A DNA stretch of 64,000 bases from an uncultured Clostridia bacterium (GTDB taxonomy: Bacteria; Bacillota; Clostridia; Oscillospirales; Acutalibacteraceae). The stretch is taken from assembly GCA_946499275.1 (NCBI GenBank), contig CAMMRL010000005.1, positions 1 through 64,000 on the forward strand, in the 5' to 3' direction. Below the pieces are notes generated by a model. The model searched no databases. It had not been told where the DNA came from and saw only the letters and a list, made by a program, of their open reading frames with translations. Position 1 is the stretch's first letter. Every line of letters begins with the position of its first letter. The position numbers and the translations under genes were made by a program. Of the stretch, positions 8,716 to 61,266 are shown one piece after another.

Positions 8716-8718
8716 TGC

Positions 8719-9408
8719 TTAAATCCTTTCAAAAATAATCTGTTTGCGGAGATATAGATTTGCTACGGATAAGACCACGGGGCGGCATTCCGGGAAGTAA
8801 CGGACCATAAAGGCTAAATTATCGCTGGTTGCATATTCGTCCCGGTAGAGGATATCCATCATGTGCTCCTCAGATACAAAGCTTTCCGTCTTCTGCTGAA
8901 AGCACTTGACGATCTCCGCCGTAGAAAGAATCATTTGATTTGCAAGACGCATAACTTTTTTCTCATCTTCGCTGCGTTTGTCCCGGCCAAAAAATTTTTT
9001 TGTGACAGAGAAGGGAACCCTTTGGAATACCGTCAGCTTGATAAAAGAAACGATTCGCAAAAGCGGGCTCTCGGAAATCGGCACGATGTATAATTCCGAA
9101 AGGAGATCATACAGGGCGTCTGCGGCAGTTTCCCCGGTGCCATCGGCGACAAGTCCGCGCTGAATCAGGCGATTGAGGCATTCTTCCATAGGACGGTGAG
9201 AAAGAAAACCCGTTTCTCGTTCTTTCGCTTCATAGTGCGTCTGAAGTTCATCCGGCTCCAAAATGCGCCAGTTGAGAATACTCCACAGCAGCATCTCCTG
9301 AATATCTAAAATGTATTCCTGATGCCCGATCACTACCTGCGGACAACGCGTGCCTTGAAGACGGCCTTTCACTTGAAGCCGACCGACTGCCGTATAAAAC
9401 TTATTCAT
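8719..9408 (-). CDS. Hypothetical element protein
   Basis: 229 residues, ATG behind GAGGTG. The first third has a winged-helix look (LDIQEMLLWSILNWRI...MEECLNRLIQRGLVADG), which could bind DNA; the remainder is helical with a basic segment (FFGRDKRSEDEKKVMRL). No family recognised with confidence. It is downstream of the sigma-like gene 9442-10044. A regulator or replication accessory is possible, inferred only from fold appearance. Confidence 0.5.
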   Translation of the reverse strand: MNKFYTAVGRLQVKGRLQGTRCPQVVIGHQEYILDIQEMLLWSILNWRILEPDELQTHYEAKERETGFLSHRPMEECLNRLIQRGLVADGTGETAADALYDLLSELYIVPISESPLLRIVSFIKLTVFQRVPFSVTKKFFGRDKRSEDEKKVMRLANQMILSTAEIVKCFQQKTESFVSEEHMMDILYRDEYATSDNLAFMVRYFPECRPVVLSVANLYLRKQIIFERI

Positions 9409-9441
9409 AGCAACACCTCATTTTTATTTATTGATGATTCG

Positions 9442-10044
9442 TCAGGATGCCTTTTCAGTGGGATACTGAAAATATCCCATAAACGAATCGTTTTGTTTCA
9501 GCTTGTTTTTCGCCCGGGAAATCCATGCGCCGACTAAGTTGGGCTTGACGCCGTACATGGCGGCGATTTCCTTTCCGGAATACCCTTTGATTTTCAGTTC
9601 TATTGCTTCAATGCCAAGCCACACTGTGCCGGTATACTGCTGCTTTATATCATGCAGCAGCTGCATCGTATCAGCTTCAGCAATGATAGCATCCTGCTGG
9701 CGGCAGTCGGGGCTCTGATCCAAAGCAAAGAGGTCGCTTTCCAGGTCTGCATGCAGTGGAATGATACATACTCTTTGCTGTTTGCCGTACATAAGACGGC
9801 AATATGTACGCAGACCGTTGGTAACTACCTTTTCAGCATAGGCTGAGAATGGAGCGCCCATCTCTTCCCGGAAGCTGGCAGCGGCTTTGCAGAGCCAGAC
9901 ACATCCCTCCTGATATAAATCTTCATACTCAAACCCGAACAGTGAATCGTTGACGATAATGTATTTATGGATGACGCGGGGGACAACATACAGATTTTTT
10001 TCTGCCAGCTCTTGTTGCCCGCGGGTCAGAATGGTTTTGTTCAT
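9442..10044 (-). CDS. Sigma-70-family-like factor
   Basis: 200 residues. Residues about 30-75 (FGFEYEDLYQEGCVWLCKAAASFREEMGAPFSAYA) show the sigma region 2 signature, with EDLYQEG close to the EDLxQEG motif; residues about 150-190 form a region 4-like helix-turn-helix (GYSGKEIAAMYGVKPNLVGAWISRAKNKLKQ). It most likely directs RNA polymerase to element promoters. Starts at an ATG behind GGGAGG. It is the stronger of the two sigma candidates in the window. Confidence 0.75.
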   Translation of the reverse strand: MNKTILTRGQQELAEKNLYVVPRVIHKYIIVNDSLFGFEYEDLYQEGCVWLCKAAASFREEMGAPFSAYAEKVVTNGLRTYCRLMYGKQQRVCIIPLHADLESDLFALDQSPDCRQQDAIIAEADTMQLLHDIKQQYTGTVWLGIEAIELKIKGYSGKEIAAMYGVKPNLVGAWISRAKNKLKQNDSFMGYFQYPTEKAS

Positions 10045-10072
10045 TTTTCCTCCCTTCTAAAATCCTTTGCGT

Positions 10073-10471
10073 TCACGCCGCCTTGATATTTTCCTGCGTC
10101 TGCTGACAAATGGCAATCAACTGATCGCACATAAATTCACTGAATTTAGCAATGTGGGCCTGATCTTCTCTTAACCCGAGCTTCGCCTGCATCCATTTAT
10201 AGGCTTGCCGTTTGGGCATTATGTTGTTCTTCCACAGCCAGTCAAAGGCTTTATGGGCCTGTATGCGTTTGTTACGCAGGTCGCCGTTGGCTAAGGTTCC
10301 CATCGGCAATTTAGATTTTTGGTGGGCGGACACATAGGCGTCACATTTTGGATACCGATCACAGACATACAGATACCCGTTTGTTTTTGCAGCGCTCCCA
10401 TAAACAGCGCGGGACGGCCGCAGAGTTGCTTTGGCACCGCAGTAGGGACAATGGATTCGCAGTTTTTTCGT
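10073..10471 (-). CDS. DUF3268 zinc-ribbon protein, apparent ACG start
   Basis: 132 residues if started at the ACG at 10471. The frame reads KKLRIHCPYCGAKATLRPS, then YLYVCDRYPKCDAYV, so CxxC and CxxxxxC zinc ligands are intact, followed by SAHQKSKLPMGTLANGDLRN and AYKWMQ, typical of DUF3268. A strong AAGGAGGTGA lies at ideal distance before the ACG, but no ATG/GTG/TTG is available in frame. A GTG at 10481 is in another frame and would need loss of one A from an A6 run. Either ACG is used, the gene is frameshifted, or there is a sequencing error. A start at the internal ATG (10333) would lose the zinc ribbon. Confidence 0.7.
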   Translation of the reverse strand, partial: TKKLRIHCPYCGAKATLRPSRAVYGSAAKTNGYLYVCDRYPKCDAYVSAHQKSKLPMGTLANGDLRNKRIQAHKAFDWLWKNNIMPKRQAYKWMQAKLGLREDQAHIAKFSEFMCDQLIAICQQTQENIKAA

Positions 10472-10509
10472 GTGAAATCACCTCCTTATACGATTTCAAT
10501 ACGGATTTA

Positions 10510-10854
10510 TTACGTATTATGAATGCTGCGTTCGCTTTTCTGAGCCATCTGGAGAATAGCGCAGTATTTGGATGAAGAGGTCTCCCAGAGAAGCCAGCGG
10601 CGGTACAGTTGTTCAAACGCATGGCCGCTTATTTCTCCGATACACTCATCTTTGGAAACCGTTTCGCCGATCAGCCTGCAGAATTTTTCTACAGAGTAGA
10701 GCAAGGGGCGTCCCTCGGTATCAGCCGTCAGCAGATAGCCGGGACACAGGTGCTCAGAAAATGGGCAAACGGAGCATTTGATAAATACGGCGTTACGCCA
10801 GTTGCCTTCACAGGCATTCAAAAAGCGGTAGAGATGGTGGCTGTTATATTGCAT
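10510..10854 (-). CDS. Small cysteine-rich hypothetical protein
   Basis: 114 residues from an ATG behind GGAGGA. Cysteines cluster in the N-terminal half (ACEGNW...KCSVCPFSEHLCPGY), possibly a metal or Fe-S site; the rest is helical (VEKFCRLIGETVSK...FEQLYRRWLLWE). No domain recognised. It lies between the adhesin terminator and the DUF3268 gene. Confidence 0.55.
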   Translation of the reverse strand: MQYNSHHLYRFLNACEGNWRNAVFIKCSVCPFSEHLCPGYLLTADTEGRPLLYSVEKFCRLIGETVSKDECIGEISGHAFEQLYRRWLLWETSSSKYCAILQMAQKSERSIHNT

Positions 10855-10992: not shown

Positions 10993-13900
10993 TTATTTAG
11001 AAGTGGTGTGTTTTCTGCGGATTTTGATACTCATAAAAATGAGTACGCCGAGAGAAGCGGAAGCGATCCCAACCCACAACCAGAGATTGAAATTATCGCC
11101 GGTCTGCGGAGAGGGTTCAGTTGGTTTTTCCGGCTCTTCCGGTTCCTCCGGTGTGATAGGCTGATTGATGAAGCCCACACCGGTTTCATTTTCAATCAAC
11201 ACGGTTTGACCGTCTTCTGTGATCTCAAAATAGAAGTATCGGTCGTCTTTCTGGAAGCCTTCCGGACCGCGCTCTTCGTAAAGAAAATAGCCGTTTTTGC
11301 GCAGCCCATCCAGCCGGTAGACGCCCAGCTCGATTTCGGCCAGGTGATCTAAAAAGGTATCGATGCCTTCGTCATAGACCTTGTTGCCGTTGACATCGAG
11401 ATAAATCCCGAACAGCGCATCAGAGAGTTTGCTGTCTGGATCGTCCTTATTAACCTTGACCGTCTGTACCGATCCGGTGACCCACTTGTTGACCGCCTTG
11501 ATTTCAATGCGCTGCGCCTGCTCGCTCACCGTAACCTTGAACAGTTCGCCGGAAAGCACGTACTGCGGCAAGCAGGACAATTCCTTGATGATCCAGTCGC
11601 CATGAGGGATATCTAAAAAGGCAAACTCACCCGCCTCATTGGATATAGCGGTCATCAAAGCAGTTTCCTCACTGAATTCCGTTTCATCCGGCCGGAACAG
11701 GCCAAATACTGACTCGGCAACGGCGCCGCCGTCTTCATTGACCTTCAAACCGTAAACATCGCCGCGGATCAGCTTGTTTTCAATGGCTTCACCATCATTC
11801 ACATGGATATGTACTATCGCGGTTTCCTGATCCTGATAAGAAAATTCCACCGGGAACTTTTTGTCGGAGATCAGGTAGTGGCTGTCGGTGGCGTATTCTT
11901 TGACATAGAGCTTTGCACCCACTGGTACGTCGGTCCTAAATACCGCCTTTCCGTTTGCAGCGCAGGAGGCGATCTCCAAAAGGCCGTCTGCCGGGATGAT
12001 ACTGCCATCCGCTGCAGTCAGCGCTTCGGCTGCATACAGCCCCCAGGCAACGTGCTGAATCTCGCCGTTCATTCCGAGCTGGAATAGTTCGTCCTGCTCC
12101 ACAATCTTCTGCAGATCAATTTGAACCCGTTGACGTTCGTTGGTGATATGCGCCTCAGCAGTGGTAAGCTGTATGTGCTGGCCCGCATAGGAAAGTGTAA
12201 CCGTAATCGGCTCAGGATTAAGCACCATGCCGTAGGGCGCTTTTCGTTCGAAAATTTGATAGGTCGAGAGATACAAAGGGTCGCTGACTGCCCAGCCATC
12301 CGGCCCGGTAGTTAAGGTCGCCACCGTATCGCCTTTGTGGTAACGCAGCACACCACCGGAAATCACATCCTCGGTAGCAACCACATCATACACGCCGTCC
12401 TTCAAACCGACCTTGGCATACACCGGCTGATAAAGCCGCGGGCTGTCCCCGCCGCCGGCAGTGGTGACGGAAGAAAACACCTCGCCGTCTTTGTAGAGAG
12501 AAATCATGCCTTTCTGGGGCATATTTGCTTTTTCGACCACCACAACCGTTATCCCGTCATGCTCGCTGGCGTCCTCCGGAGTGATGTCAAAATACACCGG
12601 TGTAGAATCCAGTACGTAGGGCTCGACCGTCTCGACCTCCACCAGCGAATAGTCCTTGCCGTAGGGCAGGGGCTCAGGGGTAATCAAATAGCCATTACTG
12701 TCTGTATAAAATGTATCAATCTCTACAACTTCCGGATAAGTCAGCGTCATGGAAATTTTGTTTCCTTCCGGATCATACAGGTTATAGCCGTGCCCGGCAA
12801 GCGGAACGGTATTTCCGGTTTCGCTATCCTTTTTGACAACCATCACGCGGCTTTCAAACTGCGCGTTGTTCAGCAGATAGCGGTAGACCGCACCGTCTTT
12901 GGAGATGAACACATCAAAATCCTTGACGAATTCTGTTCCCGGTACGCCGGCTTTTATCTGATGCACCCGATACCAGCCGAAGGGCAGATCCCTGCTCTCG
13001 GCAAAACCATATTCGTCACAGATCAGGATATCCCGTTCCGTTTCTTTCGCGTTTTCATAGGAACCGGCTGCACGGAGAAATATCTGAAACTCTGCATTTT
13101 CTTCTGGGTTTTCAATGCCAGTGGAGCCGTCATCGCTGTGTTTGATTAGGGCAACCCTTCCCTTCAGGACATCTTCGTCTGCATCCACGGCCACCTCATT
13201 GTATTCCAGCTCATAAAGTTCTGGATCAGCACCGACCTCGTAAACCTCCGGATTGAGCAGATAGCCTTCGCTCGGCTCCAGCTCCTTGATGGTCCAGTCA
13301 TCGTCACAGACATACCAATCTGTTGTGAAATCGCCGTTTGGACCCGTGAAATAGCTGTCTACCAACTGGCCGTTTTTGAACACGCCATACTCGGCATTTT
13401 CCAGGCTGGCGTCGCCTTGGGGCTTACCGGTCTCACTGTCGGACTTGGTAAGGGTGGCCCGCCATTTTTTTAAGATGTTATGAAAGGATTTGTTTGTGAC
13501 CTTGTTCCACTCGACAACTGCTTCCTGGGGTTCCGGCACCACATATTTGTCTTCAACCCCGACTTCTTCCAGAGTGTAGGGCGTACTGCCGGAAATCAAA
13601 ACATCCTCAAAGGTGGCGATACCGCGCTCATCCGTGACCGCATATTCGTCCACCTTCAATCCGGCGAGACTCGTGCCGTATAGATGGAAAGTCTTGTTTT
13701 CAATGAAACCGTCTTCCGCCGTTTTGGAAACGGATAAATTACCGCGCTTGAGGATATTGTTAAAGGTAATGGTAGAGGTCTGGCCGGAAACCACCGTGAC
13801 CCGTTTGGTTGCCTGCGGTTCATAGCGGTTTTCGGTCTGCTCGGTCACTTCATACACCCCGGGACGCAAATTTTCCAGCAAAAAGGTCCCGTCAGACTGG

Positions 13901-15039
13901 GTGCGGATGTTTTGATCCACACCGTTTCCAGAAATGTGAAAGGGTACGTTTCCAACCTTGCCATCCTCACTGGTTTTCACTAGCCGGACGCTGCCGGCGG
14001 GGGCCTTGATCCGCAGGTATGCCGGAACCGGATCGTTGTTGGCGGGAACGCCGGACACCATATCCTGATTCTCTTTTTCTTTTCCCGGCACACTCCAGAT
14101 CAAAAAACCTGTGGTATTGTTAGTAGAAGGCATACGGCGGTTTAATTTGAGCATCACTTCATCGGTAATCGGCTTGGAAGAAGACAAAACCAGCTTATTG
14201 CCGCTGATAGAAGCGGTGACGCCGCCGTTGGAGGAAACATAGAAGTTTTGCAGGACATTGTTTGTATCCGTCAGAGTAATGGTATATTTTCCATTTACAA
14301 AATCCATCTCATAAGTTGGTGCTGTGCTTTGTGCTGTCCCTGAAAAGCTGGGACGTTTATAATGATCGGCCATATCTTTCAAAATACGGTCGTACCATTC
14401 CTTAAAATAACGGTTGCGGCAATATTGTTCGGTCATGGTGCCGGAGTAACCGCTGACCGGATAGGTCTTGTCATTCAGTTCCGTAGGCGAGCTGCGGAAA
14501 CCAAGTGTAATCTGCCAGACGATCAGCTGCGTGGCGGAATAGCAGGCGTTAGCGTCCTTAGATGTTTCCAGATCGGTACGATTCGTGTAACCGTATGCGA
14601 GTGCCAACGCCAATAGATCTTTCTGTTCCGGCGATAATTGTTCATACTTGTCACCATGCGTTGCATTGCTGGAACCCGCATAGCTGGTATCGTCAGGCAG
14701 CGGGACCCCGTGTTCAATGCAAAAACAATAAACGTAGTCCTGACCGTATACCCACTGCGATTTATCTGAGGTAAGGCCGGGCCGCTTTGCCGTATAGTCG
14801 TGCATTTTCCGCACCAGCGGATTCACGGCATAACCGAAAGGATTATCTTCGGCACGCAGGCCATAGCCTGCAATAAAAGCGTTTCCCTCTTCATCAGTGA
14901 GCGTATAGTCCCAGCTCACCTCACACTTGGAAAGATCCATTGTGACGTCTGTTGCTGCAAATGCCGTTGTCGGAAGGATTCCGAGCAACATAACAGCCGC
15001 CATCAGGAGAGAAAGCAGCCGTCTTTTTGTTTTTATCAT
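10993..15039 (-). CDS. Thioester/Cna-B surface adhesin with sortase signal
   Basis: 1348 residues from the ATG at 15039 (AGGAGG upstream; an ATG 42 bases earlier lacks a site). A signal peptide ends at TTAFA. An N-terminal thioester-type domain is suggested by YCFCIEHG and, later, CYSATQLIVWQ (Cys and Gln of the crosslink). About nine SpaA/Cna-B prealbumin-like repeats follow, each beginning with a K-rich strand such as VRLVKTSEDG, LSVSKTAEDG, ATLTKSDSETG, VMVVKKDSETG and VQTVKVNKDD. The C-terminus is a Pro/Glu-rich stalk, a sorting signal SPQTGD, one membrane helix and RRKHTTSK. Anchored to peptidoglycan, it probably promotes contact with recipient or host cells. It is last in the transfer operon. 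No sortase gene is in the window. Confidence 0.9.
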   Translation of the reverse strand: MIKTKRRLLSLLMAAVMLLGILPTTAFAATDVTMDLSKCEVSWDYTLTDEEGNAFIAGYGLRAEDNPFGYAVNPLVRKMHDYTAKRPGLTSDKSQWVYGQDYVYCFCIEHGVPLPDDTSYAGSSNATHGDKYEQLSPEQKDLLALALAYGYTNRTDLETSKDANACYSATQLIVWQITLGFRSSPTELNDKTYPVSGYSGTMTEQYCRNRYFKEWYDRILKDMADHYKRPSFSGTAQSTAPTYEMDFVNGKYTITLTDTNNVLQNFYVSSNGGVTASISGNKLVLSSSKPITDEVMLKLNRRMPSTNNTTGFLIWSVPGKEKENQDMVSGVPANNDPVPAYLRIKAPAGSVRLVKTSEDGKVGNVPFHISGNGVDQNIRTQSDGTFLLENLRPGVYEVTEQTENRYEPQATKRVTVVSGQTSTITFNNILKRGNLSVSKTAEDGFIENKTFHLYGTSLAGLKVDEYAVTDERGIATFEDVLISGSTPYTLEEVGVEDKYVVPEPQEAVVEWNKVTNKSFHNILKKWRATLTKSDSETGKPQGDASLENAEYGVFKNGQLVDSYFTGPNGDFTTDWYVCDDDWTIKELEPSEGYLLNPEVYEVGADPELYELEYNEVAVDADEDVLKGRVALIKHSDDGSTGIENPEENAEFQIFLRAAGSYENAKETERDILICDEYGFAESRDLPFGWYRVHQIKAGVPGTEFVKDFDVFISKDGAVYRYLLNNAQFESRVMVVKKDSETGNTVPLAGHGYNLYDPEGNKISMTLTYPEVVEIDTFYTDSNGYLITPEPLPYGKDYSLVEVETVEPYVLDSTPVYFDITPEDASEHDGITVVVVEKANMPQKGMISLYKDGEVFSSVTTAGGGDSPRLYQPVYAKVGLKDGVYDVVATEDVISGGVLRYHKGDTVATLTTGPDGWAVSDPLYLSTYQIFERKAPYGMVLNPEPITVTLSYAGQHIQLTTAEAHITNERQRVQIDLQKIVEQDELFQLGMNGEIQHVAWGLYAAEALTAADGSIIPADGLLEIASCAANGKAVFRTDVPVGAKLYVKEYATDSHYLISDKKFPVEFSYQDQETAIVHIHVNDGEAIENKLIRGDVYGLKVNEDGGAVAESVFGLFRPDETEFSEETALMTAISNEAGEFAFLDIPHGDWIIKELSCLPQYVLSGELFKVTVSEQAQRIEIKAVNKWVTGSVQTVKVNKDDPDSKLSDALFGIYLDVNGNKVYDEGIDTFLDHLAEIELGVYRLDGLRKNGYFLYEERGPEGFQKDDRYFYFEITEDGQTVLIENETGVGFINQPITPEEPEEPEKPTEPSPQTGDNFNLWLWVGIASASLGVLIFMSIKIRRKHTTSK

Positions 15040-15063
15040 GGATAACCTCCTAATTTTTGGCGC

Positions 15064-15091
15064 AAAAAAGCGCCATCTCAAAGATGACGCT
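15064..15091 (-). terminator. Intrinsic terminator before the adhesin gene
   Basis: On the minus strand AGCGTCATCT, loop TTG, AGATGGCGCT, then TTTTTT. It stands between the displaced lipoprotein 3' part (15114-15342) and the adhesin ribosome binding site, and marks the end of the transfer operon when the inverted segment is put back. Confidence 0.8.
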
Positions 15092-15113
15092 TCTCTGTGC
15101 GATTTTTTATTTT

Positions 15114-15342
15114 TTATGCGTAGAGGACAACAAAGGCAATATCACCGTCTACCATGACCTGCATTACTTTGTAAAACGCCGAATATCCAGGTATGCCGTT
15201 GTTGGGATCTGTTACTGTTTTGACGATTTTATCAACGTGATATTTCAGCATTTCGATTGTGCCGTCCACGCCCTCATACTTGATGCGGGGCGTCCCCATC
15301 CAGCCGACTCCGCCTTCCCAGCTGAATTCCAGCGAATCATCC
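15114..15342 (-). pseudogene. Displaced 3' part of the element lipoprotein gene
   Basis: A minus-strand frame encoding DSLEFSWEGGVGWMGTPRIK...DGDIAFVVLYA, ending 23 bases before a terminator. It has an ATG at 15344 but no proper ribosome binding site. Joining it at the GGATG shared with 19420-19424 continues the lipoprotein frame (TFIW-D-DSLEF) without a break, adding 74 residues. I therefore read it as the C-terminal part of 18875-19432 separated by inversion, not as an independent gene. As it stands it could at most make a 76-residue fragment. Confidence 0.75.
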
Positions 15343-15671
15343 ATCGGGGTGAAAAAATCCTGCGGTTGCTGTGCGGTGCGGAGTTGTCCGACCAGTTGGA
15401 AGCTGTCCTGCGGACGGATCTGTTTGACAAGGACGAAGGGCTGCCCATAGAGAATGACGCTATAGACGGAAACGGGAATCCGGTCTTATTCGGTTACACC
15501 TGCGACCTGCCCCGGATCAAACGCTTTGACACGGCGCTCCGGCTCCAGAACAAGACAGGCACGCTCATCTGTTTTGATTTTCAGGCAGACGCTCTCCGCC
15601 GCTGCTGCGGGAAACAGATGCAGTTTCAGGCCATCGACTTCAACAAATGGGAAAGGAGGTTTTTTCCTTAA
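15342..15671 (+). pseudogene. Displaced 3' part of the winged-helix (replication-relaxation-like) gene
   Basis: The plus frame HRGEKILRLLCGAELSDQL...DFNKWERRFFP* has natural codon use, no start codon of its own, and ends overlapping the virD4 start by 25 bases, as expected for a gene coupled to virD4. It continues the truncated gene at 19425-20215 exactly in frame when the inversion is undone, contributing 109 C-terminal residues. The plus-strand sequence upstream of 15338 is just the antisense of the lipoprotein fragment. Confidence 0.75.
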
Positions 15672-17563
15672 AACGTAAAAGGCTATTTTCGATTCTGTTG
15701 GGTTTTCCGCCGCTTCTTTTTGCCTTGCTTTACGGCGGCGGATATATTGCACAGTTTATTCGCAACTACACCGTATGGAAAGACGCGGGCGGCACACCCG
15801 GCTATGGAACATCGCCGGAAATGCCGTCTTTTTCTTTGTCCGCCTGCTTCGATGCGGTGTTCTCTCTCCCATATGGGATAATCGGCGCACTTATCTGCGT
15901 CGGCGTGCTGGCCTTGCTCATTGTCATGGTGATGCGGATGGGCTTTGGAGACACCGGCGAATACGACAAAGACCGGAATTTTATCTATTCCAAAAAGGGA
16001 ACCTACGGCACGTCCGGCTTTCTATCTGAAAAAGAAGCGGAGGAAGTGCTGGATCTGACCTCCAGCCTAAAAAAACACAGCGGCACGATCCTCGGCACAT
16101 TAAACGGCAAGTATGTCTGCGTGCCGGAGGACAGCCGACTGAATAAAAATATCGCCGTGTACGGCGCCAGCGGCTCAATGAAAACAAGAGCCTACTGTAT
16201 CAACCGTATCCTTCAGGCGGCTGCGCAGGGGGAATCCCTGATTATCTGCGATCCGAAATCCGAGCTGTATGAAACGACCAGCCAGTATTTGCGGGACGAA
16301 AAAGACTATCTTGTCCGCGTGCTGAACCTGGTACAACCTGAGCATTCGGATTCCTGGGCCTGTCTTTCCGAGATCGAGGGTGATGAGCTGATGGCGCAGG
16401 TTTATTGCGACGTGATTATAAAGAACACCGGAAACGAACGAGGCGACCACTTTTGGGACAGCGCAGAAATGAATTTGCTCAAAGCATTGGTCTTGTATGT
16501 GGAACAGGGATACCCCGACGGCCGCAGGACAATGGAGGAAGTCTACAAGCTCATTACCCACACCACCGAACAGGAATTAAAAAGTCTGTTCGACCTGCTC
16601 CCCGCCACCCATCCCGCCAAAGCGCCCTTTGCGATTTTCCGTCAGGCATCCGATACGGTGCGCAGTGGTGTCATTATCGGGCTCGGGAGCAGATTGCAGG
16701 TTTTTCAAAACAAGAAGATCTGCAATATCACGAGCTTTGATGAAATCGACCTGGAACTTCCCGGCCAGAAGCCATGCGCCTACTATGTTGTCAATTCCGA
16801 TCAGGACAGCACCTTTGATTTTCTTTCATCGCTGTTCCTATCCTTTTGCTTTATCAAGCTGGTGAGATATGCCGATAAAAACTGCCCTGGCGGGAAGCTG
16901 GCCGTCCCGGTTCACATTCTGGGTGAAGAACTGACTGCCTGCGGCACGATTTCTGAATTATCCCGCCGGATCAGTGTCATTCGTTCCCGCAATATCTCCA
17001 TGTCCTGCGTGTTCCAAAATCTGGCGGGATTGCAAAACCGCTATCCCTACAACCAGTGGCAGGAGATTCTGGGGAACTGCGATATCCAGTATTTTCTCGG
17101 CTGTTCCGACCCGTTGACTGCTGAATATATCAGCGAACGGTCGGGTGAGGTTTCCGTCCATGTCCAAAGTAAAGCAAAGCAGCTCGATACGTGGCGAGTC
17201 AGCAACTACACGCCGGAATACCGGGAAACCAGCGGTGTTGGCCGGCGAAAACTTTTGACGATGGACGAGGTATTGCGGCTCCCTGTTTCTCAGGCGCTGG
17301 TGATTATCCGCGGCCGGAAGCTTCTCAAAGTGGATAAGCTGGATTACACCCTGCATCCGGAGGCTCGAAAGCTACAGCCCTGTAAAGCTTCCGCACACGT
17401 TCCGGAATGGAGTAAGACCCCGCGAAAGGAGGTGAGCGCCCCGCCGCCGAAACCGAAAAACCGCGCTGCCCGGAAGCCAAAGCCCAAACTGCAGGATGCG
17501 GCAGCGTCCCCGCCGGGCGTCGTACCGGCAACCAAGGACGATATCATGTCGTCCGATCAATAA
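15647..17563 (+). CDS. VirD4/TraG-type conjugative coupling protein
   Basis: 638 residues. Two N-terminal membrane helices (about 15-38 and 72-95), Walker A GASGSMKT at about 173-180, ICDPKSELYE after it, and a Walker B-like section ending HILGEEL are typical of TraG/VirD4 ATPases, which bring the relaxase-DNA complex to the type IV channel. The ATG at 15647 has no good ribosome binding site and overlaps the upstream frame; GAAAGGAGG at 15651-15659 points to position 15668 (TTA), so translation may depend on coupling. A basic, proline-rich tail follows the ATPase. The gene sits in the inverted segment, away from its normal promoter. Confidence 0.9.
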   Translation: MGKEVFSLKRKRLFSILLGFPPLLFALLYGGGYIAQFIRNYTVWKDAGGTPGYGTSPEMPSFSLSACFDAVFSLPYGIIGALICVGVLALLIVMVMRMGFGDTGEYDKDRNFIYSKKGTYGTSGFLSEKEAEEVLDLTSSLKKHSGTILGTLNGKYVCVPEDSRLNKNIAVYGASGSMKTRAYCINRILQAAAQGESLIICDPKSELYETTSQYLRDEKDYLVRVLNLVQPEHSDSWACLSEIEGDELMAQVYCDVIIKNTGNERGDHFWDSAEMNLLKALVLYVEQGYPDGRRTMEEVYKLITHTTEQELKSLFDLLPATHPAKAPFAIFRQASDTVRSGVIIGLGSRLQVFQNKKICNITSFDEIDLELPGQKPCAYYVVNSDQDSTFDFLSSLFLSFCFIKLVRYADKNCPGGKLAVPVHILGEELTACGTISELSRRISVIRSRNISMSCVFQNLAGLQNRYPYNQWQEILGNCDIQYFLGCSDPLTAEYISERSGEVSVHVQSKAKQLDTWRVSNYTPEYRETSGVGRRKLLTMDEVLRLPVSQALVIIRGRKLLKVDKLDYTLHPEARKLQPCKASAHVPEWSKTPRKEVSAPPPKPKNRAARKPKPKLQDAAASPPGVVPATKDDIMSSDQ

Positions 17564-17582
17564 TTTTACAGGAGGTTTGTCT

Positions 17583-18803
17583 ATGCCCCAAAAAGCTGAA
17601 ACTTTAGAAGCGGCTGAAGAAGCGTTGGTACAGCCCGACGCCCCAGCCGCCGAAACGGAGGAAACAGATGCACAAACAGAAGTCTCGTCGGTTCCAGAAA
17701 TTCCAGAAGAAGCGCCCGCCGAAGCGGTGGAAGAACCAAAACCAAAACGTTCCCGCCGGAAAAAGGCGGCTGCTGAGGAAACCGGCGATCTATCCGTCCC
17801 TGAAACACCGGAGGCCCCATCCCCGGAGGAACCTGCACCGGCGCCGGAAGAACCGGCAGCAGAAGCCGCTGTTTCCTCTTCTTCTCTATCGCCACGGCCC
17901 GCACCGATTTTAACGCTGGAGGCCGGCGCTGATGTGGAAACCGAAGAAAGCCTTGCAGATGTGGCGTGGCATGAGATTCACAACGCTTACCGCACCCGCC
18001 GGATGCTGACCGGCACACTCGGCGGTCTGGAACAGACGGACAACGGCAAGACCATCGCGGTTGTGGAATACAAGGGCTATCGTGTTGTCATCCCCTTGAA
18101 AGAGATGGTGCTGAATTATCAGAATCATCTCACCGGCGACGCCTACAACGAAATGATCGTGCGGCAGCACAAGCTACTCAGCCGGATGCTGGGCGCGGAG
18201 ATCGATTTCGTTATTAAAGGGATTGATTCCAAGACCCGCAGCGTCGTCGCCAGCCGCAAGGAAGCCATGCTGAAAAAACGTAAAATCTTTTACATGGATA
18301 CCGATCTTTCCGGCGAATACCGAATTTATGACGGAAGGATCGTTCAGGCCCGGGTCATCGCCACCTCGGAGAAAGCCATCCGTATCGAGGCGTTTGGCGT
18401 TGAGGCATCGGTTATGGCGAGGGATCTGTCCTGGGAGTGGATCGGCGACGCCCGCGACCATTACGCAGTAGGCGATCGGGTGCTGGTACGCGTTCAAAGC
18501 GTCAATCGGGAGGACATCGAACACATTTCCATCAAAGCGGATTTGCGCAGCGTATCGGACAACCGGCAGGACAATCTTCGCCTGTGCCGGATTCAGAGCA
18601 AATATGCCGGGATCGTTACCGACGTCCACAAGGGCGTGGTTTACATCAGGCTGACCAACGGCGTCAACGCCATTGCCCATTCCTGTTATGACAGAAGGCG
18701 CCCAGGCAAGAAAGACGACGTCAGCTTTGTCGTCACCGGCGTCGATCAGGAGCGCGGCGTCGCGCTTGGGATTGTCACCCGCATTATCCGTCAAAATCTG
18801 TAA
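17583..18803 (+). CDS. S1-domain RNA-binding-like element protein
   Basis: 406 residues from an ATG behind AGGAGG; a longer reading back to 17496 overlaps virD4 and is unlikely. Residues 1 to about 115 are a low-complexity Glu/Pro/Ala-rich region with a basic KRSRRKK patch. The rest contains S1-like beta-barrels (RIVQARVIATSEKAIRIEAFG...SVMARDLSWEW...YAVGDRVLVRVQSVN, and YAGIVTDVHKGVVYIRLTNGVNAIAH), so it probably binds RNA or single-stranded nucleic acid. It follows virD4 closely and belongs to the same transcript. Its role in transfer is unknown. Confidence 0.75.
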   Translation: MPQKAETLEAAEEALVQPDAPAAETEETDAQTEVSSVPEIPEEAPAEAVEEPKPKRSRRKKAAAEETGDLSVPETPEAPSPEEPAPAPEEPAAEAAVSSSSLSPRPAPILTLEAGADVETEESLADVAWHEIHNAYRTRRMLTGTLGGLEQTDNGKTIAVVEYKGYRVVIPLKEMVLNYQNHLTGDAYNEMIVRQHKLLSRMLGAEIDFVIKGIDSKTRSVVASRKEAMLKKRKIFYMDTDLSGEYRIYDGRIVQARVIATSEKAIRIEAFGVEASVMARDLSWEWIGDARDHYAVGDRVLVRVQSVNREDIEHISIKADLRSVSDNRQDNLRLCRIQSKYAGIVTDVHKGVVYIRLTNGVNAIAHSCYDRRRPGKKDDVSFVVTGVDQERGVALGIVTRIIRQNL

Positions 18804-18806
18804 TTG

Positions 18807-18836
18807 TTGAAAAACGGCGGTGTTTGGTCGTATTAT
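18807..18836 (+). promoter_or_regulatory. Possible promoter before the lipoprotein gene
   Basis: TTGAAA (18807-18812) and TATTAT (18831-18836) with an 18-base spacer lie 38 bases before the lipoprotein ATG. It would let the lipoprotein be expressed apart from virD4. Confidence 0.4.
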
Positions 18837-18874
18837 ATAAGTGAAGACGAAATTTCTACACAGGAGGGATTTCG

Positions 18875-19432
18875 ATGCGTAAACTTTTCTTCGTCTTGCT
18901 TTGTATAACGCTGATTGCTCTTATCGGCTGTCAGTCAGAAAACACACCGGATGCCGCCGTTTCTTCCCCGGCTGCCTCGCAGGAGAATACATCCGCAATT
19001 TCATCTGCGGATACAACGTACAGCGGCAGCGCCGAAACATCAGGCAATTTTTCCAGCGATAAGAGCCAGCCTACGCAGGCAGAGGCGTCCAGCCCATTGG
19101 CTGAATCATCTGATACTCCCAGCCGTCCCCAGGAAAAACCGGCTTCTCCCACCGAGACAAAGCCGGCCATTCCGGAACAGACAAAGCCGCCGAAAGGCAG
19201 CGGCGGCAGTTCTTCTCCACCGTCGCTCCCCTCAAATCCGTCGGCAGAGTCCACGCCTACAGCGCCGTCCGCATCTGAGCCATCAGAGCCGGCCGCTTCC
19301 AAACCGCCGGAAACCACAAGCCAGCCGGAGCAGAATATGGAAGCGGAATATGCCCGGATCATCCGGGAAACGGTGGCCTATGCAGAAGGCTATACAGTAA
19401 AGGGCTTTACCTTTATCTGGGATGTTGGTTAA
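18875..19432 (+). CDS. Ser/Pro-rich lipoprotein, truncated by inversion
   Basis: 185 residues as it stands. An N-terminal signal with lipobox LIGC (Cys about 19) is followed by some 130 residues of Ser/Pro/Thr/Glu-rich spacer suited to crossing the cell wall, then the start of a folded domain (EYARIIRETVAYAEGYTVKGFTFIWD). The stop comes three codons past the inversion breakpoint. Rejoining the displaced segment at 15114-15342 gives a 257-residue protein with a complete C-terminal domain. ATG behind AGGAGG. Similar lipoproteins occur near transfer genes; function unknown. Confidence 0.75.
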   Translation: MRKLFFVLLCITLIALIGCQSENTPDAAVSSPAASQENTSAISSADTTYSGSAETSGNFSSDKSQPTQAEASSPLAESSDTPSRPQEKPASPTETKPAIPEQTKPPKGSGGSSSPPSLPSNPSAESTPTAPSASEPSEPAASKPPETTSQPEQNMEAEYARIIRETVAYAEGYTVKGFTFIWDVG

Positions 19433-20215
19433 AAAATAGAAATGGTCATAGCTGCCGTCCAGCAGCAAATATTGTTTGCCGCCTTCGCCGGATAGGATAC
19501 CCGCTGCCAGTTCCATGCTGTTTCCAAGAAGCAGCCCTTTGACATCTTCCGGCGCGTATTGCTCCGGGAGCCGTTCCCGGCAAAGAATGGTCTGCATCAG
19601 CGCCTTGGTTCGCAGTTCCGCCCGGTACTGCCATTTCATCAGGGCATTTCCCAGATTGTATGTGATAAAAACGCCCTTCTCCGCCAGCAGAACACCGACT
19701 GACCGGGCGCCCTTGATTTTAACAGTCACCGTTCCGAGTTCTTTAATCTCGCGGGAATTATAAAAGGCGGGTGGAATTGCAGAAAATCGGGGATCCCCTT
19801 GCCAGACAGGGCAGAAAATGTCCGGCTTTTCATCCCGAAAGACTACTATACCTGCCTGCTGCATGGTAACGGTGGCCTCGGCGATCCGATGAAGGCGCTG
19901 GCGGCGGAACAATTCGCTTTTGATATGGTTCGTTTCCGCTGATCCGGCCAGGCAAAAACAAAACCGCTGCGGCTGGTCGGCCGCAAGAAGTTTCTTCGCC
20001 CTTGCCGTCAGCCGATACCCCCGAAGCCGGTCCCGATAGTAGGTGTGCAGCAGGCGCTTTTGTTTGAGCGCCTGCACGACACTGGCTTTGTACGCCTCTC
20101 CACCGGGCAGACGGGAAAGCTGGTCTGAGGGGAACTCGCCGGAAAGGGCGGTCAGTTCGAGAAGATGATAACCCACGGTATGTCTGCCGGGGAGGGACTG
20201 AGAAGAATGCGCCAC
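19283..20215 (-). CDS. Winged-helix replication-relaxation-like protein, 3' end replaced
   Basis: GTG start at 20215 behind GGGAGG. Residues 1-75 look like a winged helix (HTVGYHLLELTALSGEF...VVQALKQKRLLHTYYRDRLRGYRLTARAKKLL); the rest resembles Replic_Relax-type proteins commonly found before virD4 in clostridial ICEs. Genuine coding sequence ends about 19425 (DHFYFLTN); the last 47 codons are antisense to the lipoprotein and unlikely to fold. Restoring the inversion adds 109 residues from 15342-15671, for 374 in all, ending in overlap with virD4. As present the protein is probably defective. Confidence 0.65.
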   Translation of the reverse strand: MAHSSQSLPGRHTVGYHLLELTALSGEFPSDQLSRLPGGEAYKASVVQALKQKRLLHTYYRDRLRGYRLTARAKKLLAADQPQRFCFCLAGSAETNHIKSELFRRQRLHRIAEATVTMQQAGIVVFRDEKPDIFCPVWQGDPRFSAIPPAFYNSREIKELGTVTVKIKGARSVGVLLAEKGVFITYNLGNALMKWQYRAELRTKALMQTILCRERLPEQYAPEDVKGLLLGNSMELAAGILSGEGGKQYLLLDGSYDHFYFLTNIPDKGKALYCIAFCIGHRFPDDPGIFRFHILLRLACGFRRFGSGRL

Positions 20216-20230
20216 CGTCTGCCTCCCTTC

Positions 20231-20262
20231 TAAAAAATTACCCAGTTACGATTGACCTGGGT
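20231..20262 (-). terminator. Terminator-like hairpin before the winged-helix gene
   Basis: ACCCAG / CTGGGT with an 11-base loop, followed on the minus strand by AATTTTTTAG and then directly by the GGGAGG of gene 20215. Part of the element-wide attenuator-like pattern. Confidence 0.6.
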
Positions 20263-20354
20263 ACAAAATCGATTTTTTGCTTGTCTGTGAGACCACCCTG
20301 CACCGCGTTTTTGCAGATGACTCCATATATCCCATTTTGGAACCCTCAAAACCG

Positions 20355-21017
20355 CTAAAAATCGGATATGGATTTCAGGCGGTTTTCACGCTCTTTGATC
20401 CATTCCGGGAAGCGTTCCTTTCCCATCACGCAAATACAGGTGCCGTCGTGGTCTCCGATTTCTGTGGTGTTATAGGCGTCGCATAAAAGGCCGCTGTCGT
20501 CTTCCATCACAAAGGCGGCGATCACGTCCAGGAGCTGCTTCAATTCCAGATTATCGTAATCCCGGATATGGGAGATGGGGAAATCCCGGTTGTAGATATG
20601 GGAAAAGCAGACAACGCAGTGGCTGAACTTCGGCAGCGGATGGCTGTCTGCATACTGACTTAGGGTAAAATACAGCGGATCGGTTATAAACTCAGAATTT
20701 TTACGCTGTTTTCGCTTGGGGAGCAGACAGGGTAGAGAGATATTCAATGTGCCGTTTTCCTCAGAAATCCGAATTCCCTGCACAATGCCGGCAGAAGTGA
20801 GATATTCGTTTTTCTTCACGTTTGTAGTGCCATAGATCAAATGCCGTATCCGGCAGGTAATCAGCTCGCTCCGGAGGGCAGCATCGGTGGAGAGCAATGC
20901 GTAATTGTCCGGATATTGTTCGATATCGGTGCTATCCATCGCATAAAGCGTATTTTGCAGCTTTATGAGATCCTCCAAAATTTTGTTGATCCGCTGTGAT
21001 AGGATTTTTCTTTCCAA
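20355..21017 (-). CDS. Conserved clostridial element protein (possibly DUF6100)
   Basis: 220 residues from a TTG at 21017 with AAGGAGG at ideal distance. The N-terminus is helical (QRINKILEDLIKLQNTLYAM), the centre beta-rich with charged loops, and the C-terminus contains CICVMGKERFPEWIKEREN. From memory it resembles an uncharacterised family (DUF6100) found in Firmicutes mobile elements, but this is not certain. It lies between the DUF5697 gene and the winged-helix gene in the transfer operon. Confidence 0.55.
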   Translation of the reverse strand: MERKILSQRINKILEDLIKLQNTLYAMDSTDIEQYPDNYALLSTDAALRSELITCRIRHLIYGTTNVKKNEYLTSAGIVQGIRISEENGTLNISLPCLLPKRKQRKNSEFITDPLYFTLSQYADSHPLPKFSHCVVCFSHIYNRDFPISHIRDYDNLELKQLLDVIAAFVMEDDSGLLCDAYNTTEIGDHDGTCICVMGKERFPEWIKERENRLKSISDF

Positions 21018-21032
21018 ATAGGTCCTCCTTGT

Positions 21033-21557
21033 TTATTCCTGCTTGAAGTATTGAATTTCCCCTGTGTCCGACACCACACAAAAGGCGGCGGCGTTAGAAA
21101 TACAAAGGCGGGCAATCTGCCCGGTGTCTTCGACAACGAGGATGCGTCTGCCCTCCGATTCGCCGGCTTGAGAGAGCGCGTGTTTTACCAGCGCCTCTTT
21201 ATCGGGAGGGACGCAGATGATCTCATAGGTTTCACCGTCCGCGAAAAAGATGATCTTCGTGGGAAAATCATCAGGGGAATGGTATTCCACCCCATCCGCA
21301 AAATCCGCCAGCACCCACAAGGCCGCCAGCATCTCCCAGTCTGTTTCAAAGTCCGGGTTGTCGTAGTATATATCGCTTTGCGAGTCGTGGAAGATCCGCC
21401 CCTGCTTTGTAAGATATCCAAGCAGGTTATCCAGCACCGATTTTTCCTTGTTGGAATAGAGCCGGTACACCTGCTCATGCCGGATGCAGCGGTAATTGGA
21501 TATATCCCGCAGCAGACTGGCTGCTTCTTTGCTGTAAAGCTGATCTCTGGTTTTCAC
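21033..21557 (-). CDS. DUF5697 protein
   Basis: 174 residues, GTG start behind AGGAGA. The N-terminal half reads as a winged helix (YRCIRHEQVYRLYSNKEKSVLDNLLGYLTKQGRIFHD) followed by a mixed domain (DWEMLAALWVLADFADGVEYHSPDDFPTKIIFFADGETYEII), the pattern of DUF5697, a family confined to clostridial ICEs and usually near the VirB4 gene. It may bind DNA; no function is established. The gene starts after a terminator-like hairpin that overlaps the virB4 stop. Confidence 0.75.
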   Translation of the reverse strand: MKTRDQLYSKEAASLLRDISNYRCIRHEQVYRLYSNKEKSVLDNLLGYLTKQGRIFHDSQSDIYYDNPDFETDWEMLAALWVLADFADGVEYHSPDDFPTKIIFFADGETYEIICVPPDKEALVKHALSQAGESEGRRILVVEDTGQIARLCISNAAAFCVVSDTGEIQYFKQE

Positions 21558-21590
21558 GTTTATATCTCCTTTAATGCGTATTAAATCAGT

Positions 21591-21640
21591 AAAAAATCCG
21601 CATACGGGCGGACAATACGTGTTCCGTCCGTATTAGGATT
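21591..21640 (-). terminator. Terminator overlapping the end of virB4
   Basis: AATCCTAATACGG pairs with the arm AATCCGCATACGG read in complement; on the minus strand the structure ends GGATTTTTTAC. The upstream arm includes the virB4 stop codon. It separates the secretion genes from DUF5697 and the genes below. Confidence 0.65.
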
Positions 21641-24620
21641 GCATTGATGACTGCAGAAGTTTTCGCTGTTCAACCAGCTCCTGTAGTTCCCTGCGGTCGG
21701 TGGTAATGAGGGATTTTTCCAAATCGCTGCATCGGAATTCTACAGTGATATTATTATTGTTGGAACTGATAAGCCCGTTGCCGCGCTCAAAATGAGTAAT
21801 CTCCATGACCTCCGCTTCGGAAAGGTGGAGGATATTCTGAACACGCTGCGCTTCCTCGTCTTCCAAATTCAGGACAATCTTGGTTTTGCAGTTATTGATA
21901 ATGCCTTTCCCGTATTTCCCGTCCTCAAGAGCAAAGAAATCGTTGAGATCCTGCGTGGCGCAGACGGCAGACCCGCCATAACCGCGTATAATCTTGAAGA
22001 TTTCCAGCACATATTCCGCAGCGAGCCGGTTTCCGGAGCCACCAATCAGTTGCCAGCACTCGTCGATAAAGATAGCCTTTTCCACCGTCCGGTTTTCTTT
22101 GGCCTTATCCCACACAAAGTCCAACGCCACAAACATACCGGCGGTGAGTAGGTCCCCGCTCAGTTCCGAAATATCCAACACCGTGTACTTGTTAGACAAA
22201 TCCACGTTGGTTTGCTGGTTGAAAGAACGGGCCGAGCCATGCACAAGACGGTTGAGGATGTTCGCCATCCGTTTGGTTTCAGCAGACGAGGCCAGCACTT
22301 CATGTAAATCTCCTAAAATCGGCATTTCCCGATAATTTCCGGGATTCTGTGGATCGTTCAGAGAAGCATTATCATGCGTGATGCCCTTTTTGTTGTAGGT
22401 CTTAATCATTGCCTCGTCCAGTAGCTGTCTCTCTTCGTGGTTCATATCCGGTATCAAAAGGGAAAAGAAGATGTGCAACTGTTGGATTTTTGATGCCAGC
22501 GCCGATTTTTCCAAGGCTCCGCCGTCCAGCAGCTCATCTACCGACTTGTCGGTGGGACGGATTTCCATGACATTGATACAGTTTTTCGATGCCGGGCTAA
22601 TCTGGATAAATTCGCCGCCTATGTTTTTACAGGCACGGTGAAACTCATGCCCCTTGAGTGGTGCGACGATGAACACCTGAATGCCTTTTCTTCTCATACG
22701 TAAGCCCATCAGTTGCAGTGTAAAAGTCTTACCGGCTCCGCTGGTCCCCAAAATTGCCATATTAGCGTTCTTATAGACCCGAGAGTTAAAAATATCTACA
22801 ATCACTAGAGAATTATTGATTTTATTAGTTCCCAGCAAAATACCGTTGTCGTCGCAAAGCTCATAGGCGGTGAAGGGATAACAGCTTGCAGCGCCGGAGG
22901 TCAGCACGTTGCGCTTGGAGCGCCCGTACAGGTGCTTTTCCAAATTCGTTAGGGGCAGCGCCGATAAAAAGGCCTGTTCCTCACGGAATGCGCAGGAGCT
23001 TATGGATAGATCCTGCGATACCAGCAGCTTTTTCATTTCGCGCTCCCGCCATTCCAGATCCTCCGGTGTTTCAGCGGTAATGGTAATAAGGATATTGGCG
23101 TAATAAAAATCCTCGCTGTTCGAGAGGCCGTCTTTGAGAAAGTATCCGCTGCGGATCGCCCCGTCCAAATCGTCATAATCGGTGTTGGTATCGCTCGTTT
23201 CTTTAATCTTAGAACGGTTGATCCGGAGCTGCTGCCCCAGCTTATGCACCATGCGCTCTTTTGGCTGCTTCGTTAAAAACAGGTCAATATCAATGCCGTC
23301 TCCCGCATTGATTAACAGGCTCATCCAGCCTGCCGTCACACGGGATTTGTACCCATCGGACGGGATCAGCAAATAGGAATGATACAGACCATCGATGGAG
23401 ATGTATTTCGCATGGGTGAAGTCAATGGTTTTTGGTGCGAAAAACTCGGTACAGGGGATGGCATCGGTGTTTTTGCCCTGCTCCACATATCGGGAAACAA
23501 TATCCTCCACACGGGCGGACAGCGGTACATCCGAGCTTTCCTGCCGGCAGAGGATGTTATACAGTACATCTACCGTAAACTCATCTTCGTTTTCCGGCGT
23601 CAGCACTTCGTTCCCGCACTGTTTCAGGTAATTTACTGCGGTGCGGGCCGCCACCTGCAGGGTGGATATGGCGTCGGCTTCATCGCTGCCTCCGCGTCGG
23701 CCCACAGCCTCATACTCAAATGAAATGAAAAAGCGGCGGGTTGTTGCTTCACGGGAGCCGATACGTCCCACCAGTTTTAAGTAATCTTCCTGAAGCATCC
23801 GGCAGTTCGGATCGGTTTCCCGCGCCATTTCTTTTTTCACAATGTCTATGTGCCGGTTGATGTCAGCGCGTTTGCTCAGGGCCTTAAACTGGATTTTGAC
23901 CGGAGAAATTTTCAAATAACTAATAAAGGAATAGATGATACTGCGTTGTTCCCGTGCGCTGCGAAGCAGGAAGTTAATCGGTACAACCTCAATCACCTTA
24001 ATGTAACGGTGATCCTTGGTATAGATGACGCCGTTTTCAATCTTTTCAATGGGAAGATAAGCGGCCACCGGATTTAGAAATTCCGATTCCGGCACCTGTC
24101 GGCGGGAACGTGCCCTTTCCGGACGCTCTTTCCGTTTCTGGGACTTAGCCTCTTTGGCCGGTTTTTCCTTTTGAGCCGACCGTTTGCGGATGACGCCCAG
24201 AATTTCCGCAAGCATGGAGGGCTCTTTGTTTTCAACGGCCTTATTATCCTTGCGGACGGCCTGTTTTGCCGGAGCCTCCTTTTTCTCCGGACGCTTTTTC
24301 GCTTTCTTTTCTGCGGTCTCACCCACCACACGGCGGTTTTTGACCCACTTAAAAAATGCAACGATGAAGGATGAAAGGCATTCGCCCGATACGCCGAACA
24401 GCCCGAGCAGCGCCAAAGGGAGGGCAGTCAGGCACAAAAGGATGATCCGCGTTGTCAGCGGTATATTCAGCATAAAGACCGGCAAGCCCGCTGATACAGA
24501 GAGAATGCCGGCCTCGATTGCGTTTCTCAGCTTAAATGCTCCCCCGAACAGAGTCGAGCCTTCGATAAAGTTCGGTGGGATATAATAGGTTTCAAATTCG
24601 TTGTCTTTGGATTTGCTCAT
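21633..24620 (-). CDS. VirB4-type secretion ATPase with fused PrgI/VirB3-like N-terminus
   Basis: 995 residues. Residues 1-95 (YYIPPNFIEGSTLFGGAFKL...RNAIEAGIL plus two membrane helices) match PrgI, the VirB3-like subunit usually made as a separate protein. A Lys/Glu/Ala-rich linker of about 90 residues follows. The rest is VirB4/TraC-like, with Walker A GTSGAGKT at about 625 and Walker B AIFIDECWQLIGG at about 845-858. The protein powers the type IV channel at the membrane. ATG behind AGGAGG. Downstream of the C39-peptidase gene. Confidence 0.9.
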   Translation of the reverse strand: MSKSKDNEFETYYIPPNFIEGSTLFGGAFKLRNAIEAGILSVSAGLPVFMLNIPLTTRIILLCLTALPLALLGLFGVSGECLSSFIVAFFKWVKNRRVVGETAEKKAKKRPEKKEAPAKQAVRKDNKAVENKEPSMLAEILGVIRKRSAQKEKPAKEAKSQKRKERPERARSRRQVPESEFLNPVAAYLPIEKIENGVIYTKDHRYIKVIEVVPINFLLRSAREQRSIIYSFISYLKISPVKIQFKALSKRADINRHIDIVKKEMARETDPNCRMLQEDYLKLVGRIGSREATTRRFFISFEYEAVGRRGGSDEADAISTLQVAARTAVNYLKQCGNEVLTPENEDEFTVDVLYNILCRQESSDVPLSARVEDIVSRYVEQGKNTDAIPCTEFFAPKTIDFTHAKYISIDGLYHSYLLIPSDGYKSRVTAGWMSLLINAGDGIDIDLFLTKQPKERMVHKLGQQLRINRSKIKETSDTNTDYDDLDGAIRSGYFLKDGLSNSEDFYYANILITITAETPEDLEWREREMKKLLVSQDLSISSCAFREEQAFLSALPLTNLEKHLYGRSKRNVLTSGAASCYPFTAYELCDDNGILLGTNKINNSLVIVDIFNSRVYKNANMAILGTSGAGKTFTLQLMGLRMRRKGIQVFIVAPLKGHEFHRACKNIGGEFIQISPASKNCINVMEIRPTDKSVDELLDGGALEKSALASKIQQLHIFFSLLIPDMNHEERQLLDEAMIKTYNKKGITHDNASLNDPQNPGNYREMPILGDLHEVLASSAETKRMANILNRLVHGSARSFNQQTNVDLSNKYTVLDISELSGDLLTAGMFVALDFVWDKAKENRTVEKAIFIDECWQLIGGSGNRLAAEYVLEIFKIIRGYGGSAVCATQDLNDFFALEDGKYGKGIINNCKTKIVLNLEDEEAQRVQNILHLSEAEVMEITHFERGNGLISSNNNNITVEFRCSDLEKSLITTDRRELQELVEQRKLLQSSMQS

Positions 24621-24635
24621 TGATTCCTCCTGACA

Positions 24636-26030
24636 TTATCCTATGATCCAGAATGGTCCTCCGGCGGCCGCCCCCTCTCTGGCTTCGTCAATAATCAGGG
24701 ATAAATCCCACGTCTGTTCGCTCTTTTTATAGCTGGCAGGATCGGCTACAAGGATTTTACCGTTCTCTACACCGCGCAAAACGATGAAATGGCCGGAGGT
24801 CGTAAAGTGTCCCTTGCTCATCAAAGCAACCACCAGCTTCCCGTCGCTCAAAGCGTCGGAAATCTTCTGCCCGCCGTCCTTGCCGCAGCCTTCCACTGGG
24901 AGATCCCAAGCTTTGGCCGCTGCCGGGATCAGGCCATGATAGGAGCCGTTCCCCGAAGCCCAGTAGCCGTGCTCATACGACCACTTTGCCATCTCTACGG
25001 GATCGACGGTTTCTTCCGTGAGGGAGGAGACCACAATCGCCATCGCGGTAGGGCCGCATCCATAACCGCCGATATCGTCCGTCCCATACGGTTTGGAAGC
25101 ATATCGCTCATCAAGCTGATTAAAATAGACAACTTCTGTTTTGCCATTGGTGAATTTAATATCGCCCAGAGATGTGATCGCCTGATATCCGTTGGGAAGC
25201 CTTTGGAACATCCCATCGCCCAAAAACATACCCAGGTTTTTGGCGTAGTTGTTCGCCAGTTCCTTTTGCTCCGCGTCCAGATGAAAGACGTTATCAGCAA
25301 AATAATCCTCGCCGTTGTAGACGATGGTATACACCATCCAGGTTTCCGTTACCGTCTTCGAGGTCGAGGTTTCTTTGCCTGTGCTGCTGTCTACAGTGAT
25401 GGTGATTTCCTCACGCGTGCGCGTCTCTTCCTTTTTGGAAAAGGAATACAGCTCCCCTTTGGCGTTTCGCAGCGTGGATTCCATATCAGCAAAAGTGATG
25501 GATTCAAAATCCTCGTTTTTGGAGGCGCAGAACTGCGAAACAAAGGCGTTGGCGTTATATGCTGGTGCATTTTCATGGGGATTGATGATCTCCCGCTGGT
25601 CGGCGGTGGAATTGTTATAATCCTGCTCAATCTGTTTCAGGACATCTTCCAGCGCCTCTGACAATACATCACTCACGGAATTTGTAATATCGGTCACGTT
25701 CTCCGTGATATAGGCGCTGTCGTTTAAGATGGGAACCGTCGGATCGTCCGGTGTGAAGGCATCCACCAGACCGCCGAAAATCAAGGAGGGCAGCATCAGG
25801 ATAAACAGTATCGGCAGCAGGAAGATCGCCACTACTACAAGGATGATTTTTCCGATCAGGTGTCGGTTACCCCAAACAAGGCCGGCCACAGCGCCATACG
25901 GACCGCCTGCAGCGGCACCTTTGGCGGCTCCGGCAATCGCCTTCCCGGTTTTAACTGCACCACGAACGGCATTTGCAGCCTGTGCTCCCTTTTCAGTGAT
26001 AGAAGTTTGATTGTTTTTTTCTTCCGCCAT
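24636..26030 (-). CDS. Membrane-anchored C39-like peptidase of the secretion system
   Basis: 464 residues. A Gly/Ala-rich cytoplasmic N-terminus, one membrane helix (about 55-80), a long extracellular linker, then a Peptidase_C39_2-type domain from about 300: VVYFNQLDERY, YGCGPTAMA (nucleophile Cys), GHFIVLRGV (His) and LVADPAS (Asp). It takes the position of the VirB1-like wall hydrolase in other systems and probably opens or remodels peptidoglycan for the channel, though C39 enzymes can also process peptides. Its ATG overlaps the upstream stop (TGATG). Confidence 0.85.
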   Translation of the reverse strand: MAEEKNNQTSITEKGAQAANAVRGAVKTGKAIAGAAKGAAAGGPYGAVAGLVWGNRHLIGKIILVVVAIFLLPILFILMLPSLIFGGLVDAFTPDDPTVPILNDSAYITENVTDITNSVSDVLSEALEDVLKQIEQDYNNSTADQREIINPHENAPAYNANAFVSQFCASKNEDFESITFADMESTLRNAKGELYSFSKKEETRTREEITITVDSSTGKETSTSKTVTETWMVYTIVYNGEDYFADNVFHLDAEQKELANNYAKNLGMFLGDGMFQRLPNGYQAITSLGDIKFTNGKTEVVYFNQLDERYASKPYGTDDIGGYGCGPTAMAIVVSSLTEETVDPVEMAKWSYEHGYWASGNGSYHGLIPAAAKAWDLPVEGCGKDGGQKISDALSDGKLVVALMSKGHFTTSGHFIVLRGVENGKILVADPASYKKSEQTWDLSLIIDEAREGAAAGGPFWIIG

Positions 26031-58899: not shown

Positions 58900-58931
58900 T
58901 TCGACCCACTATACAGAAGGGATGAAAGCAA

Positions 58932-61223: not shown

Positions 61224-61266
61224 TGTCCGCCGGGCGGCATAGCCCAAAGTATACGCTTTGATGCAT

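Follow-up and report, generated by a model that had tools for sequence, protein, structure and literature searches.

The described systems closest to this locus are clostridial conjugative modules of the CD1110/CD1115 type, such as the annotated Vescimonas fastidiosa plasmid NZ_AP023417.1. The gene set of these modules is shared by the element studied here; it comprises genes for a C39 peptidase, a VirB4-like protein, DUF5697 and DUF6100 proteins, a protein at the winged-helix (WH) position, a CD1115-family VirD4, an S1 protein and a SpaA adhesin. The genes of the plasmid follow the canonical order and the protein at its WH position is intact. Among the CD1110/CD1115-type relatives, the stretch from inside the WH gene to inside the lipoprotein gene is never inverted, whereas it is inverted in the window, by which we mean the whole stretch of DNA that was analysed, the first 64 kb of the 72.9-kb contig C5 from a draft genome of 2.5 Mb in 90 contigs.

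Several known processes bear on such an inversion. Invertons of gut bacteria carry inverted repeats of 10–40 nt, and their programmed inversions within genes join and split reading frames, like the one described here (PMC11892184). The integrases of Tn916 and Tn1549 act on short crossovers, and template switching in yeast homogenises short inverted arms and inverts the spacer between them, on a far smaller scale (PMC8604942).

The transfer region and its relatives

The window was compared with a second element on contig C20 of the same genome, which is 70–80% identical and of canonical order, with the same-genus genome G007 and with the relative L027; outside the inversion, the window element is collinear with all three. 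ORFs and Pfam matches confirmed what an earlier note on this DNA had claimed, that virD4, the S1 gene and the lipoprotein gene read on the plus strand amid minus-strand transfer genes. The features are as follows.

10993–15042, minus strand: SpaA-repeat adhesin with a thioester domain (Pfam), which follows the lipoprotein in the canonical order
15114–15344, minus strand: conserved C-terminal part of the lipoprotein, now separated from the rest (ORF), 81–84% amino acid identity with the nearest relatives
15338–15342, plus strand: left breakpoint, CATCC, placed by in-silico inversion and alignment breaks; the ATC there is a non-ancestral WH codon 265
15338–19424, no strand: inverted segment of 4087 bp, defined by two frames rejoined by in-silico inversion and by alignment breaks against C20, G007 and L027
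15342–15671, plus strand: final 109 codons of the WH protein, without a start (rejoined frame, relatives)
15647–17563, plus strand: virD4 coupling protein, CD1115 family, 638 aa, frame intact (NF045973, PF02534)
17583–18803, plus strand: S1-domain protein, 406 aa, frame intact (PF00575)
18875–19432, plus strand: truncated lipoprotein, 185 aa (257–270 aa in relatives)
19420–19424, minus strand: right breakpoint, CATCC (GGATG on the plus strand), placed by in-silico inversion and alignment breaks
19424–20215, minus strand: WH protein, codons 1–264; the current ORF extends to 19283 through unrelated sequence
20355–26030, minus strand: upstream transfer genes for DUF6100, DUF5697, VirB4 and the C39 peptidase, on the canonical strand

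VirD4 scored 375.8 bits against NCBIfam NF045973, above the cut-off of 250 that assigns it to the CD1115 module. VirB4 reached 261.1 bits against NF045971 (CD1110), under the cut-off of 325; it appears related to that family yet falls below the curated line, and exact CD1110 membership is not claimed. VirB4, DUF5697, DUF6100, WH, VirD4 and S1 are co-directional only once 15338–19424 is inverted. The WH and lipoprotein families have no match in Pfam, and a PDB sequence search with WH returned nothing; a fold search with the L027 protein gave weak support for a winged-helix-like part (best E 0.02).

Pfam scans from 0.2 to 30 kb of the window found no relaxase, but the contig starts either within the element or at its boundary. 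At about position 30313 (about 135559 on the L027 contig), the similarity to the L027 element stops and the adjoining genes differ, which sets the right-hand boundary of the mobile element. The L027 contig has a tyrosine-recombinase gene about 24 kb past the part common with the window element. Inside the window element, positions 6467–7465 on the minus strand encode an AbiEii-type nucleotidyltransferase of a type IV toxin–antitoxin family (PF08843). Elsewhere in the window, long open frames lie on opposite strands over one stretch, 58869–61247 (minus, 792 aa) and 58932–61223 (plus, 763 aa).

A VirD4 search of the GTDB species genomes yielded 76 loci, to which loci from whole-genome searches were added. 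WH and virD4 lie on the same strand in all 80 loci carrying both, as do DUF6100 and virD4 (74/74), virB4 and virD4 (57/57), and virD4 and S1 (65/65). The WH match runs uninterrupted across the junction position in 79 loci. The earlier note had proposed an ancestral order of WH, virD4, S1, lipoprotein and adhesin, which these co-directional relatives bear out. Database searches with the rejoined proteins found both cut genes at full length in relatives, and none of the relatives found has the window's orientation, whose presence in related elements the note had named as its refutation. Because all relatives are canonical and both cut genes are intact there, the present order is, as judged from these comparisons, derived, and it is the single difference within an otherwise conserved element. 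An inverted order common to a family of elements was rejected, as every informative relative is canonical. Viral contigs held 132 stretches with the searched pattern, yet neither a relative of VirD4 nor an exact match to a junction; phage and plasmid collections gave matching DNA that is only 60–80% identical, and in same-genus and order-wide DNA searches the closest sequence has about 81% identity at the junctions.

Some of the collinear elements have peculiarities of their own. On C20 (locus L010, G000:C20, 2115–5095 and 5176–5697), the virB4 match is divided between two frames, in pieces that overlap, and the DUF5697 match contains one stop; these anomalies would reflect either decay or sequencing errors. 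Compared with C20 and L027, synonymous divergence amounts to ∼0.7–1.2 in WH, virD4 and S1 (window 15342–21557) and ∼1.7–1.9 in VirB4, the C39 peptidase and the adhesin (10993–15081 and 21633–26030); with its lower values, the WH–virD4–S1 stretch may possibly have been exchanged in the past. In the same genus, the virD4 of L011 (G007:C11, about 8238–10762) is interrupted near residue 280; the insert, ∼2.5 kb long, carries a reverse-transcriptase/maturase and HNH-like frame and, recognised by eye, is probably a group II intron.

Sequence at the two junctions

At the left end, a plus-strand WH tail without its own start abuts the minus-strand lipoprotein-tail ORF (15114–15344); at the right end, the lipoprotein gene reaches 19432 and overlaps the WH ORF (from 19283) in antisense. 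Both descriptions had been given before and are correct. When 15338–19424 is reversed in silico, two single open frames result, a WH protein of 374 aa and a lipoprotein of 257 aa. The argument that such a double repair is no coincidence had been based on the two rejoined frames; the relatives now rule out coincidence as well. The alignment to C20 is interrupted at 15342/15346 and 19422/19424, without a net change in length. By BLASTN, at the WH site, 15342 pairs with C20:27426 and 19422 with C20:27428; at the lipoprotein site, 15346 pairs with C20:23311 and 19424 with C20:23303. The rejoined junctions align gaplessly with C20, G007 and L027.

The two junction peptides fared differently. The lipoprotein junction reads IWDDSLEF after rejoining and agrees with VWDDSLEF of the nearest relatives. 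The WH junction, given before as NIHRGEKIL, reads TNIHRGEK with Ile at position 265, and here the agreement fails: the aligned residue in 84 relatives is Asp (73), Asn (9), Glu (1) or Gly (1), and never Ile. The codons used there are GAC (67), GAT (6), AAC (6), AAT (3), GAA (1) and GGC (1). Of the 134 WH columns with ≥75% conservation in 70 distinct relatives, position 265 is the sole one at which the window residue is absent from all relatives. A confident model of an intact relative, with a mean pLDDT of 91.6, shows the corresponding Asp262 immediately ahead of helix 263–273; helix-cap positions usually hold Asp or Asn. Ile265 is thus almost certainly not ancestral in this alignment, and relatives ∼75% identical at the amino acid level suggest that the WH bases before the event were most likely GAC.

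Both ends carry the ATC of the lipoprotein side, and neither has GAC, the probable WH codon. This bears on the five matching bases CATCC, which had been described as a pre-existing microhomology. Since the WH codon within CATCC is almost certainly non-ancestral and is identical to the lipoprotein bases, the apparent microhomology was probably created in part by the event rather than being its cause, and the earlier description is not upheld. Assuming GAC, the register that was used matches at 1–2 bp, and a shifted register offers 4 bp (CATC). A 5-bp inverted match is computed for ∼0.6% of random break pairs; a true 5-bp microhomology followed by an unrelated Asp-to-Ile change is possible.

Origin of the inversion

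We consider it probable, from a draft assembly alone, that a CD1115-type conjugative element underwent a single inversion of 4.1 kb, recent and unprogrammed, between a WH site and a lipoprotein site. An unprogrammed event is preferred because a search of contig C5 with PF00589 and PF00239 found neither a tyrosine nor a serine recombinase, and because no inverted repeats of ≥12 nt common to the two ends were found; inversion via long inverted repeats was rejected on the latter ground. The ends would have been joined with ∼1–2 bp of matching; each junction would have received about three bases of the lipoprotein site (ATC/GAT), at the expense of the WH bases, which were probably GAC. Such a scar could be left by three routes, namely staggered-break repair, replicative template switching, or the action of a tyrosine recombinase on short crossover sequences that do not match. 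In the yeast template-switch system, inversion of the spacer goes together with homogenisation of the arms, as CATCC at both window junctions suggests; however, the spacers inverted in yeast are of a few bases with arms mostly >9 bp, compared with 4.1 kb and 1–5 bp here (PMC8604942). All frames are open with dN/dS of 0.03–0.18, so the event is recent or not real; over such long branches, these values are a weak clock for a recent event.

The strongest rival, which we regard as possible but rather unlikely, is an assembly error: the element would be physically canonical, with 4.1 kb flipped in silico or joined by chimeric reads. The window orientation is unique among all relatives, the assembly is a draft of 90 contigs, and inversion misassemblies are documented in metagenome assemblies (PMC9661791). 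The odd bases right at a junction could also reflect sloppy joining. However, the joins are free of N and contain ACGT only, the ends lack a repeat near the assembler word size, and the two junctions are reciprocal, without net loss relative to C20. Amplification (MDA) chimeras mostly combine an inverted join with an intervening deletion (PMC1855051), which is different from the window. The probable WH codon GAC is, moreover, absent from both ends. In the sequence as assembled, the absent N, the absent long repeat, the reciprocal junctions and the missing WH codon favour a real molecule.

A one-time act of a tyrosine recombinase on two fortuitous sites seems improbable to us. Its crossover would be short and non-matching, as in Tn916/Tn1549, and lipoprotein bases would be kept at both ends after heteroduplex resolution. 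Such an act accounts for the same five bases at both junctions and for the loss of the WH bases; Tn1549 crossovers measure 5–7 nt (PMC5871717), and 11 tyrosine-recombinase matches lie elsewhere in the genome, although contig C5 has no such gene. These integrases need no match between crossovers, and the five identical junction bases of the window are also obtainable by other routes. Tn1549 requires AT-rich, imperfect inverted repeats of 11 bp around the crossover (PMC5871717); by inspection, the WH site has loose T- and A-runs, whereas the lipoprotein site has neither these nor Tn1549-like repeats, and no flanking repeat is common to both sites.

The earlier note had also suggested that the segment may be an on/off control of conjugation. 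A flip would neatly connect or disconnect virD4, and the genes remain open and constrained; nevertheless, an evolved switch is unlikely, and we give programmed, reversible inversion very little weight. Different from invertons with their repeats of 10–40 nt (PMC11892184), the window ends have only 5 bp in common, no recombinase lies nearby on contig C5, and one orientation alone is seen: each junction half occurs once at full identity in the assembly, no contig of the other orientation was found there, and inversion was seen in no relative. Each of the breaks falls within conserved coding sequence, and a return flip would put Ile at an Asp/Asn position. With a balanced mixture of orientations, a short-read contig should also have broken at the segment ends. 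Least probable of all is a recombinase that takes ∼5-nt exchanges within coding sequence, copies one crossover to both ends and so toggles the transfer operon without inverted repeats.

Consequences for conjugative transfer

If the single unprogrammed inversion is real, it would affect both gene products and expression. WH is short of its last 110 residues, and the lipoprotein is short of most of its conserved C-terminal part. In the canonical order, the virD4 start overlaps the WH end, so translation of the two is probably coupled there. After the inversion, virD4 and S1 would be cut off from the operon promoter, their overlap with the WH reading frame would be gone, and operon transcripts would run antisense through the lipoprotein gene, S1 and virD4. 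No promoter-like site was found on the plus strand at 15100–15646, and the number of such sites in the region equals that of shuffled sequences. Because WH and the lipoprotein are truncated and virD4 and S1 would be off the operon promoter, self-transfer of the window copy is probably lost. On C20, the match to virD4 is full-length, and this second virD4 might stand in for that of the window copy.

A striking gene order in one draft assembly should be compared with relatives and with reads before it is called a switch. If real, the inversion is a clear case of a clostridial conjugative element losing self-transfer, apparently not long ago, and its junctions preserve a trace of how DNA was inverted without repeats.
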